Source of the DNA: Sulfurimonas sp.
GTDB taxonomy: Bacteria; Campylobacterota; Campylobacteria; Campylobacterales; Sulfurimonadaceae
Length of the DNA: 64,000 bases
Assembly (NCBI RefSeq): GCF_028694605.1
Contig: NZ_JAQVKP010000010.1
Span: 1-64,000, forward strand
Direction: 5' to 3'
The position numbers were made by a program, and so were the translations under genes. The notes below the pieces were generated by a model. That model saw nothing but the letters and a program-made list of their open reading frames with translations, did not search any database and was not told the DNA's origin. Positions 60,050 through 63,220 of this stretch are shown piece after piece; within the stretch, counting starts at the first letter, position 1; every line of letters begins with the position of its first letter.

Positions 60050-61315
60050 TTATCTCTGTATATCTCTGTACCCATCCTCTTCACTCATCATTGTTCCGTA
60101 AATCCGTACTGTTTTTCTATCGTTTTGTTTAAACTCTTTTGTGTATCCCATATAGTGGTTGATAAGAGTGTAGATATCGTTGTGGGATGCTATTTTTTCA
60201 AGGTGCATTTCAAGGTTTGAGTGCATCACAAGCGGCACGGAGTAAATCTCTTTCTCAAATCTGTTATGACCCGTCTTTCCATTTTCACCAAGCATCTCTC
60301 CATGATCTGAGACAAAGATAAAAATATATGGTTTTGAGGAGTTACTGCTTACATAAGCGATAAGTTGGCGCAAGACAGTATCCGAATAGAGCATAGAGAG
60401 ATGGTATCTTTGCTCTATTGAGGTGCTTCTACTTGCATTTTCATAGTAAATATAAGGGCTGTGCTCCCCTTGCATCTGGAGTACGATAAAATTTTTCTCA
60501 TCCAAAGAGAGAGTTTTGAGATGTGTGAGCAGCTCTTTATCGTCCCGCGAACCTTCCACTTTAAATGTATCTATATGCCCAGTGGAGAGATAAGGGAGTA
60601 TGTATTGCAAACTCTTTTGACTTTGCGTTGTAAAAAAAGATGTCTTGTAGCCGTTTTGTTTTGCCAGCAAAAAGAGATTGTTTTGCAAATCTAGCGTTTT
60701 TGGAGAGAGTGCGCCATTGAGAAGCAGAGGCAGGGCAATATCGGTATTTGTCGCTCCGCTTAGTATGGTTTTGTAGTTGTAGTTTTCAAATATCTTATAA
60801 CGCTCTTTGAGGTGTTCACGGCTTCTCATACTCTCGCCCAGCACTAAAATAATGTTGTTATCGCTCCGGTAGAGCGGTATATTTTTATGCTCCTCACTTT
60901 TTTGAATGACACCCTGCCCTTTTTGTAAAAAAAGAGCTTTGACACTCTCTTTGATGAGCACAAGTGAAGCATCATGCAGTTTTTCTTGAAGCCAAAAGGA
61001 AAATAGCAGAAAAAGAGAGAGCAAAAATGCCGGAATAGTGCTTTTTTTATAACTCATAGATATGACAATAAAAGAGGTTACCCCAACCACAAAAAGTGGA
61101 TAAAGCACCATTTCATAAAGAGTTCCAAGTGTCTCAAACGTTTCTGTTATATGTGTAAAAAACAGATAAACATCACTAGAGCGAACATGTGTACCAAAGT
61201 AGGCGATAAAAGTAAAATGGATAAGATATAAACTCTCTAAGGCGATAAGAAGAATTTTAAAATAGTTAGATTTTGAAAAAAGAGAAAGCAGCGCAAAGAG
61301 CATCAAAAATTCCAA
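60050..61315 (-). pseudogene. Phosphoethanolamine transferase-like sulfatase-fold protein, N-terminus apparently frameshifted
   Basis: The open part encodes 421 residues: membrane helices up to about residue 110, then an EptA/sulfatase-like catalytic domain (ILVLGESMRS, GATNTDIALPLLLNG with the probable Thr nucleophile, VSDHGEMLGENG). Such enzymes add phosphoethanolamine to lipid A or flagella. This frame has only a TTG start at 61315 and begins in a membrane helix; upstream in the same frame more membrane-type sequence is open. A separate frame from ATG 61457 carries KTAIFLASALLSKLPFF, the expected first helix, and ends at a stop near the A6/A7 tracts at 61341-61357. One base too many there explains both. 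Confidence 0.6.
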
Positions 61316-61524: not shown

Positions 61525-61824
61525 ATGAACACACAATACGAAATAATAAATTTTTTACAAAACAATCGTAAGCTTTTGTTAGAAAAATATCATGTCACAA
61601 AGATAGGTCTCTTTGGTTCTTTTGCTCGTAATGAACAACAAGAGAATAGCGATGTTGATTTATTGGTAGAGCTTGAAGATGGCACACAAAATATTTATGA
61701 TTTAAAAGATTCTCTTAAACAATTTCTCTCTTCTTCCTTTAATCGCAGCGTGGATATCGCTCGGGAGAAATATCTCAAACCCTATGCAAGAGAACAAATT
61801 TTAAAAGATACTTTGTATGTATGA
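61525..61824 (+). CDS. MntA-type minimal nucleotidyltransferase antitoxin
   Basis: A 99-residue protein with the MNT signature GLFGSFARNEQQENSDVDLLVELED (GSFAR, then D-x-D). MntA antitoxins inactivate their HEPN partner by AMPylating a tyrosine near its active site. The following HEPN gene overlaps by 8 bases, so the two are coupled. The MNT gene is complete with all key residues. Confidence 0.85.
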   Translation: MNTQYEIINFLQNNRKLLLEKYHVTKIGLFGSFARNEQQENSDVDLLVELEDGTQNIYDLKDSLKQFLSSSFNRSVDIAREKYLKPYAREQILKDTLYV

Positions 61825-62141
61825 CAATATCGCTTTTAATCTTCATGCTCTTGTTGAATCTATTGAAAAAATAGAGCTATACTCAAAAGATTTTGATGAC
61901 GCAGATGAATTTTATCATGACCAAAAAAGCTTTGATGCTTCAATTTATAGTAATAGGCGAAATAATTTTTCGATTAGATGAAAAGTTTAAAATTTCTCAT
62001 AGTGAAATACCTTGGCAAAAAATAAAAGATTTTAGAAATATTATTGCACATGATTACTTTGGTATAGATGCAGATGAGATTTGGGATATCATAAATAATA
62101 AGCTTTTACCTTTGAAAAATGATATTAATGGATTGCTATAA
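61817..62141 (+). pseudogene. HepT-type HEPN ribonuclease toxin, frameshifted
   Basis: The first frame starts at ATG 61817 (MYDNIAFNLHALVESIEKIELY...) and runs off family after the A6 tract at 61923-61928. The second frame continues as LMLQFIVIGEIIFRLDEKF with the HEPN active site RNIIAHDY, where R-x4-H is the RNase motif and the Tyr is the AMPylation target. Removing one A from the tract joins them into a normal-length HEPN protein. As written, the toxin is probably lost unless slippage restores it. Confidence 0.7.
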
Positions 62142-62190
62142 TTAAATAGTGTCAGTCACTTTTTTGAAGTGGTACAGGAATTAGTGAATC

Positions 62191-62358
62191 GTTATGGCCC
62201 CCTTTCTCACTCGGATATGCTATAATTTAAGCGTATCTGCTATCGCTATTGCCATTGTTATAGCCCCCTTTCTCACTCGGATATGCTATAATTTAACAAG
62301 TTTTGATAAGTCTTTTAAGTTTGTTATAGCCCCCTTTCTCACTCGGATATGCTATAAT
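62191..62358 (+). CRISPR. CRISPR array, type II-C-like, three repeats and two spacers
   Basis: Three 36-nt repeats at 62191-62226, 62257-62292 and 62323-62358 begin GTTATAGCCCCC and end GGATATGCTATAAT; the last two are identical and the first has one change (A to G at position 6). The spacers, 62227-62256 and 62293-62322, are exactly 30 nt. The repeat closely resembles that of the Neisseria meningitidis type II-C locus (GTTGTAGCTCCC...GTGCTACAAT). Its 3' end is an extended -10 promoter (TGCTATAAT), as in Neisseria, where each repeat starts its own crRNA. A matching tracrRNA lies downstream. No cas gene is in the window. Confidence 0.93.
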
Positions 62359-62371
62359 CTTCTTCTCTAAA

Positions 62372-62392
62372 GCCCTGCGGTAGGCGGTTTTT
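62372..62392 (+). terminator. Possible terminator after the CRISPR array
   Basis: GCC (62372-62374) and GGC (62383-62385) can pair around an 8-nt loop, followed by GGTTTTTT. The stem is short, but the T-run directly after it supports an intrinsic terminator ending array transcripts before the tracrRNA promoter. Confidence 0.4.
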
Positions 62393-62431
62393 TACCAATT
62401 TTTTTATAAAAAAAATATTATATCATAACAG

Positions 62432-62525
62432 ATATAGTTTATCCGAGTGAGAAACGAGTGGGCTATAATAAGCAGGTTATGGTTCCTGCGCAAGGCTCTG
62501 AACATTGTTCATCCTCAAAAAAACC
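62432..62525 (+). ncRNA. tracrRNA for the type II-C-like array
   Basis: The anti-repeat has ATCCGAGTGAGAAA (62441-62454) and GGGCTATAAT (62460-62469), which pair with the repeat 5' half including one G-U pair; a short bulge separates them. The tail then reads AATAAGCAGG, a GCAGG/CCTGC hairpin (62472-62489), GCGCAAGGCTCTG and a TGAAC/GTTCA hairpin (62499-62511). The segment GCAAGGCTCTG parallels GCAACGCTCTG in the Neisseria tracrRNA. An AT-rich -10-like TATTATATC lies about 62416-62424, so transcription may begin near 62430. Ends are approximate. Confidence 0.85.
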
Positions 62526-62635
62526 AATTCTTTCATGCCAAGCTGCAATAAATTGAAATATAAATTAAATTACATAAACTTCTCAGCAACTTATCGGTAC
62601 CCTATCACTTATAAAAAATTCTAAAAGGCATAACA

Positions 62636-63220
62636 TTGTCAGATAAACAAGATACAGAATTTGAAAATGCAGTAAAAACAATGATGCTCCATGTTGGGGA
62701 AAACCCAAGCAGAGAAGGACTTTTAAAAACTCCGCAAAGAGTTAAAAAAGCATATGAGTTTATCTTCGGCGGGTATAAAGAAGATCCAAGGGAGATACTT
62801 AAGTCCGCTCTTTTTACAAGCTCAAACGATGAGATGGTGCTTTTAAAAGACATAGAATTTTACTCTACTTGCGAACACCATCTTTTGCCTATAATAGGGC
62901 GTGTTCATGTGGCATATATACCAAATGGTAAAGTAGTAGGGCTTTCAAAAATTCCTCGCGTAGTCAATGTGTTTGCACGCCGTATGCAGATTCAAGAGCA
63001 GTTGACGGAACAGATAGCCGATGCCATTATGGATACGATTCAGCCAAAAGGTGTGGCAGTCGTTATACAGGCAAGACACATGTGTATGGAGATGAGAGGT
63101 GTTGAAAAAATCAACTCAACCACAACTTCGTCGGCTCTTCGCGGGTTATTTAAAAAAGATGAAAAAACAAGAAGCGAATTTTTCTCTTTGATAAACTCTC
63201 CTAACGGTTCACGTTATTAG
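62636..63220 (+). CDS. folE: GTP cyclohydrolase I
   Basis: A 194-residue enzyme that converts GTP to dihydroneopterin triphosphate for folate synthesis. Zinc ligands are in [21 protein letters not shown] and [27 protein letters not shown] is conserved. The start is TTG at 62636 (AAAGG upstream). It lies just past the CRISPR region, so the array has no link to its function. Confidence 0.93.

Follow-up and report, generated by a model that had tools for sequence, protein, structure and literature searches.

The locus lies at positions 62191-62530 of the window, by which we mean the whole stretch of 64,000 nucleotides of Sulfurimonas sp. DNA that was analysed, and comprises three CRISPR repeats of 36 nt, two spacers of 30 nt and a tracrRNA gene (Table 1), in agreement with the original prediction. 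This format of 36-nt repeats and 30-nt spacers is also that of the relatives, and an extended -10-like sequence stands at the end of every repeat. The Rfam model CRISPR-DR34 matches the three repeats at 28.3, 32.5 and 32.5 bits (E = 0.011, 0.00075 and 0.00075, respectively), in all three cases below its gathering score of 35. The repeat is not dispersed over the genome: positions 62320-62530 have three matches at E <= 1e-5 in the genome from which the window comes (hereafter, the own genome), all of them within the locus (6 of the 15 first-look candidates were scored), and positions 62150-62640 have no match in plasmid or phage collections. To the left, the toxin-antitoxin pair that had been described as damaged consists of an intact MntA-like gene (PF01909) and a HepT-like gene whose coding sequence is divided between two frames (PF01934).

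Table 1. Features of the locus and its surroundings (positions in the window, except in the last row)
Feature	Position	Strand	Remarks
Sulfatase-like gene, left flank	60050..61315	-	named by eye; G126 (intact locus), G039 and G040 (both empty at this site) have it on the left as well
MntA-like nucleotidyltransferase (antitoxin) gene	61525..61824	+	intact; PF01909; finds no match in the 10-kb stretch from G126
HepT-like ribonuclease (toxin) gene	61817..62141	+	frameshifted into two ORFs; PF01934 on the 82-aa ORF
CRISPR repeat 1	62191..62226	+	a single base off repeats 2 and 3; 3' end is extended -10-like TGCTATAAT
Spacer 1	62227..62256	+	
CRISPR repeat 2	62257..62292	+	
Spacer 2	62293..62322	+	no credible target
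CRISPR repeat 3	62323..62358	+	leader side
Leader	62359..62416	+	repeat 3 and leader align with G126 over 97 nt at 91% identity
Putative deletion joint in A-tract	62408..62417	.	against G126, leader-side homology to 62416, tracrRNA-side homology from 62411
A+T-rich -10-like stretch ahead of tracrRNA	62416..62432	+	conserved with relatives
tracrRNA anti-repeat	62433..62471	+	
tracrRNA stem-loop 1	62472..62489	+	outer pair G62472-C62489; A-T in relatives
tracrRNA stem-loop 2	62499..62511	+	
tracrRNA 3' segment AACCA	62522..62526	+	able to pair with the loop of stem-loop 1
folE, GTP cyclohydrolase I, right flank	62636..63220	+	
Type II-B CRISPR-Cas9 locus (cas9, cas1, cas2, cas4, array)	G000 contig C25, about 132.9-142.4 kb (L158:4924-14418)		

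A tracrRNA anti-repeat that matches the repeat, one of the type II-C traits that we tested, is present: 76 nt past the array, two inverted matches to the repeat follow one another, the first of 22 nt and the second of 15 nt. Local alignment of this region with the reverse-complemented repeat gives a score of 19, compared to a maximum of 12 in 2000 mononucleotide shuffles of 62359-62640. The anti-repeat had been described as fully complementary, which is too strong, given that the identity is 91% over the 22 nt and 87% over the 15 nt, with a bulge between the two segments; cofolding of repeat and anti-repeat predicts the same bulged duplex here and in the relative G126 (-46.5 and -45.9 kcal/mol, respectively). 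Further along the tracrRNA (62477-62526), the loop of stem-loop 1 shows a covarying pairing with a segment near the 3' end. Across 25 sequences, the mean longest Watson-Crick pairing of a loop is 4.84 bp with its own tail vs. 4.01 bp with swapped tails, and the observed mean was reached by 1 of 10,000 permutations, a statistic that is inflated by kinship among the sequences. The pairing is uneven, with 2 pairs in G127 and 3 pairs in G026, G103 and G121 (5 or 6 if G-U pairs are counted), and the tracrRNA in the window retains 5 pairs. As predicted from sequence, this arrangement is reminiscent of the guide RNA of Campylobacter jejuni Cas9. A review describes a triple helix between the stem-loops of that RNA (PMC7737000).

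None of the cas genes that would complete such a system was found in the window, and no cognate cas9 or cas1 was found in the rest of the genome. In the window and in the contig to 75 kb, tblastn searches for cas9, cas1 and cas2 returned only noise (best E = 0.16), which upholds the claim that the window contains no cas gene; the operon cas9-cas1-cas2 without csn2 or cas4, another type II-C trait tested, is missing from the window and present in the relatives G029 and G126. The own assembly, rated 100% complete, has a total of 2,148,404 bases on 25 contigs. It yields no match to the general Cas9 profile TIGR01865, whereas 15 of the 60 genus genomes searched do; of 14 control genomes, 4 gave a match to this profile and 0 a match over the cut-off. 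With the 980-aa Cas9 of G029 (P0001) as the query for the cognate II-C Cas9, no match at E <= 1e-5 was obtained in the own genome vs. 43 of 135 genus genomes, some of which hold only distant Cas9 types (28-41% identity). The only match of the G029 Cas1 in the own genome is a distant Cas1 (34% identity) encoded on contig C25. This protein is the sole Cas1 detected in the genome by Pfam and belongs to type II-B. The Pfam family PF18541 was silent in the own genome and equally so in 14 of 14 controls, and is therefore uninformative. The array shows the defining trait of an orphan, in that neither its surroundings nor the assembly yielded cognate cas genes.

The type II-B locus on contig C25 (Table 1) encodes a Cas9 of 1328 aa that matches TIGR03031 at 785.6 bits (cut-off 399.4); this profile has 3 matches among the 135 genus genomes, with the cut-off exceeded only in the own genome, and no match in the 14 control genomes. 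The locus has an array, with 46 repeats detected, and its own 17-nt anti-repeat between cas4 and the array (L158:10864-10880). Because of this II-B Cas9, the own genome is not Cas9-free, as TIGR01865 alone would label it, and what is missing is the cognate II-C Cas9. The suggestion that Cas9 is encoded elsewhere therefore holds for a Cas9 of another subtype, accompanied by cas1, cas2, cas4 and its own array, and fails for the cognate II-C Cas9 and Cas1, which were not found. Presumably, CRISPR defence in this organism rests today on the unrelated II-B system. As a separate matter, we compared the 45 stretches between the II-B repeats to the window and to the G126 and G077 stretches; the best match (E = 4e-4; 16 nt, window 29364-29349) was judged to be due to chance given 45 queries, and cross-targeting between the II-B and II-C systems, of which there was no other sign, was rejected.

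Comparison with the genus shows that the RNA part of the locus belongs to a widespread family. Positions 62320-62530 match 30 of the 135 genus genomes at E <= 1e-5, and 27 of these 30, including the own genome, match in the tracrRNA part, with G052, G088 and G105 matching only in the repeat or leader. A matching Cas9 (at least 69% identity to P0001) is found in 27 of the 30, either whole, cut at a contig end (several genomes, e.g., G042, G085, G103 and G105) or broken, internal stops being present in G074 (contig C83), G077 (C36; one stop) and G121 (C1). The 3 genomes without a matching Cas9 are the own genome, G052 and G088, the latter two with matches near contig ends; the G088 match (L154:217-314) consists of a single repeat and the leader and, by eye, possibly the last codons of cas2, a gene that tblastn did not find there. 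Conversely, G109 has a Cas9 of the family without a match to the RNA part. Two scraps of the same family were also observed: a cas9 N-terminal fragment with an anti-repeat in G016 (C57; L065:4948-5137), and a second tracrRNA copy in G075 (L144:3292-3395). Such further scraps and broken cas9 genes show that decay of II-C systems happens elsewhere in the genus, too.

An 18-base anti-repeat pattern was found in 36 stretches of named GTDB genomes, of which 27 belong to the II-C family, 25 of them titled Sulfurimonas, 1 Epsilonproteobacteria and 1 Helicobacteraceae; the other 9 stretches come from unrelated taxa, have only 16 to 20 bases in common and are not accompanied by such a Cas9. The assignment of the locus as II-C-like was right. 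The operon of G029 is cas9-cas1-cas2, and its Cas1 and Cas2 fit type II models. The best-scoring PDB chains for the G029 Cas9 are 1082-1095 residues long, and 5x2g, which we take to be a shortened construct of C. jejuni Cas9, scores 332.9 bits; given the length of the best chains, this Cas9 cannot simply be classed with the short Cas9 of C. jejuni. The repeat and tracrRNA had been thought to point to transfer from a Neisseria-like source, which we do not uphold: their spread within the genus, for the most part together with a matching Cas9, and the loop-to-tail pairing resembling that of C. jejuni argue against such a source, and the II-C system is best read as native to Sulfurimonas.

A complete II-C locus occupies the same chromosomal site in G126 (C38; JAOTSA010000003.1, Sulfurimonas sp. 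isolate MAG10). There, the order is sulfatase, an array of 16 repeats, leader, cas2-cas1-cas9 on the opposite strand, tracrRNA and folE, and the proteins are of 107 aa (Cas2), 297 aa (Cas1) and 978 aa (Cas9, without stops); in G126 and G029 alike, the array would be opposite to the cas operon in direction, provided that the -10-like sequences at the repeat ends set the direction of the array. The two loci share the site by folE, a near-identical repeat, a leader and tracrRNA that are about 90% identical, and the order of their common parts, whereas G126 has cas9, cas1, cas2 and 16 repeats, compared to 3 repeats without any cas gene in the window, where the MntA-HepT pair lies on the left. Protein identity between the window and G126 is 96.9% for FolE, 96.8% for the fliI part, 97.3% for the rnj part and 82.1% for the sulfatase. 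By the fliI part, the rnj part and the sulfatase, G126 is nearer to the window than G039 and G040 are; for FolE, this order is narrowly reversed (97.4% in G039 and G040). The presence of an intact locus at the same site strongly supports the view, already offered as an alternative in the original prediction, that the locus is the residue of a lost system. In G039 and G040, the site is empty, with no gene between the sulfatase and folE; G077 also has a II-C system beside folE; and G005 carries at folE another type II system, comprising a Cas9 of 1115 aa, cas1, cas2 and an array with a different repeat. The folE site is variable, with defence genes being gained and lost there.

The homologies with G126 on the leader side and on the tracrRNA side come together in an A-tract of 8 nt (Table 1). 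In G126, 4296 bases, containing cas2-cas1-cas9, lie between the two homology end points, and the tracrRNA-side match lies 17 bases from the cas9 start codon. An alignment of eight sequences shows that the leader core ends in an A-tract, and the region before the tracrRNA is A-rich in most relatives; with A-tracts on both sides, a deletion between short A-tracts would be the simplest event. As a rough clock only, we used fourfold-degenerate sites, of which 133 of 379 differ between the window and G126 in four flanking genes or gene parts. For the tracrRNA, we defined 71 conserved columns within 62411-62512, each identical in 23 or all of the 24 relatives with a Cas9 beside the tracrRNA. Three of these relatives have a cas9 with stops; G023 and G027 were not included, and the scraps in G016 and G075 were treated separately. 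The window departs from the consensus in 2 of the 71 columns, 62472 and 62489, the two partners of one base pair (G-C in place of A-T), vs. a neutral expectation of about 12 since the split from G126; the scraps in G016 and G075 depart in 22 and 7 of the 71 columns, respectively. Thus, the tracrRNA is better kept than expected under neutrality, which indicates that either the loss was recent or the RNA is still constrained, recent loss being the simpler of the two.

Among the 135 genus genomes, the two spacers occur at up to 3 mismatches only in the own array, and neither is present in G126. A 21-mer of spacer 1 is found in no viral contig, and an 18-mer of spacer 2 is found in 13, each of which has between 7 and 11 mismatches to the full 30 nt, which we took as chance; in the phage collection, spacer 1 hits 9 records (best E = 2) and spacer 2 hits 112 records (best E = 0.2 among the 10 matches listed). 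The first 18 nt of spacer 1 (62227-62244) are identical to part of a gene of the own genome (G000:C13:160557-160575) that, by eye, is the 3' end of a DAHP synthase gene, with 6 mismatches over the 30 nt. The seed of a spacer lies in the half toward the following repeat. That spacer 1 caused the loss by self-targeting was rejected, given that the 18 matching bases lie in the half farther from that repeat and the other half contains the 6 mismatches.

In our reading, the locus is very probably (a probability of about 0.92) what remains of a type II-C CRISPR-Cas9 locus, once complete in this lineage between the sulfatase-like gene and folE, from which the cas genes were deleted. A deletion of about 4.3 kb, reaching from the A-tract in which the leader ends to the A-rich sequence immediately ahead of the tracrRNA, would have taken cas2, cas1 and cas9, including the cas9 start codon, and would have spared the array, the leader and the tracrRNA with its -10-like region. 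If still transcribed, the remnant would yield crRNA:tracrRNA duplexes without an effector. The remnant, the joint, the complete locus at this site in G126 and the failure to detect a cognate Cas9 or Cas1 in the assembly are read directly from sequence; we infer that G126 represents the ancestral state, that one recent deletion between A-tracts produced the present state and that, without the cognate Cas9, the locus confers no immunity; the remnant is most likely inert. Several points weigh against the deletion reading: the spacers are missing from G126, the conservation of the tracrRNA also fits a retained function, and the comparison covers one strain of the species. Furthermore, the left side is unlike that of G126 (the MntA-HepT pair, and 3 vs. 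16 repeats), so that more than one event shaped the site, and the FolE of G039 and G040, with their empty site, is as near as that of G126, which leaves some room for a history of separate gain.

The conservation of the tracrRNA would be read differently if the locus were maintained as a source of guide RNA only, with the dual-RNA activated by an incoming II-C Cas9 or loaded by the II-B Cas9 across subtypes, and with constraint rather than recency preserving the tracrRNA; we consider this improbable. The form in which the RNAs are kept for a cognate Cas9 met at times, via plasmid, phage or DNA uptake, and then become active again is slightly less probable still. It would account for the conserved tracrRNA columns being intact save for one compensated pair, and it has a counterpart in the orphan CRISPR2 of Enterococcus faecalis, a precedent for a dormant type II array that reportedly worked once the cas9 of CRISPR1 and the predicted tracrRNA were supplied (PMC5491264, PMC4894674). 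However, the array has just two spacers, without a credible target, the cognate Cas9 was not found in the own genome, and recent loss explains the conservation equally well.

Service in trans by the resident II-B Cas9 is very unlikely. This Cas9 is present in the same genome, along with cas1, cas2, cas4 and an array, but the repeat in the window differs from the II-B repeat, to which it looks unrelated, and the II-B locus has its own anti-repeat. In published cleavage tests, moreover, dual-RNAs were interchangeable only within one type II subcluster (PMC3936727). With exchange so limited, use of the remnant RNAs by the II-B Cas9 would not be expected. We give as little credence to an assembly artefact, in which the cas operon is present in the cell and was collapsed at the joint. 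The position of the joint within an 8-nt A-tract could suggest such a collapse, but the stretch shared at the joint is far exceeded by the usual assembly word sizes, and in this assembly, with its 25 contigs and full completeness rating, the cognate cas9 and cas1 were detected on no other contig. Least credible is a Cas-independent regulatory RNA, kept for a role without Cas9 such as pairing with a transcript, to which the 18 nt shared by spacer 1 with the C13 gene and the extended -10-like sequence closing each repeat might point, but only 18 of the 30 nt match before the identity is lost, these 18 are in the half farther from the next repeat, and spacer 1 (up to 3 mismatches) occurs in 0 of the 134 other genus genomes. 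For a scaRNA-like role, in which a small RNA would act together with tracrRNA and Cas9 on a transcript of the host, this partial match of spacer 1 is the one pointer noted.

Loss events of this kind are known, and the II-C remnant described here is a well-resolved case. Orphan arrays are already known, and isolated arrays without nearby cas genes are mentioned in PMC5608340 and PMC12282179; we found no prior description of an array with its tracrRNA but without cas9 in the open literature, that is, mostly outside subscription papers and as far as the texts were available. Among related genomes, a single chromosomal position shows the complete locus, the empty site or the cas-less remnant, so that the origin of an orphan array is visible here. 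The locus is a natural test case for the replacement of one subtype by another and for the speed at which guide RNAs decay after loss of the nuclease, its bearer having a second, unrelated Cas9 system. In Mollicutes, type II systems are often inactivated or decayed (at least 8 of 21, in the portion of PMC6882279 at hand), so that the two cases are alike in the frequent decay of type II systems within one clade; they differ in that an array and tracrRNA left by a clean deletion are not among the degraded systems described in that portion. The orphan CRISPR2 of E. faecalis, as presented in PMC5491264 and PMC4894674, is likewise a type II array that lacks its own cas genes, but is of type II-A and had its tracrRNA supplied together with cas9, whereas the array described here is of type II-C and still has the tracrRNA gene beside it.
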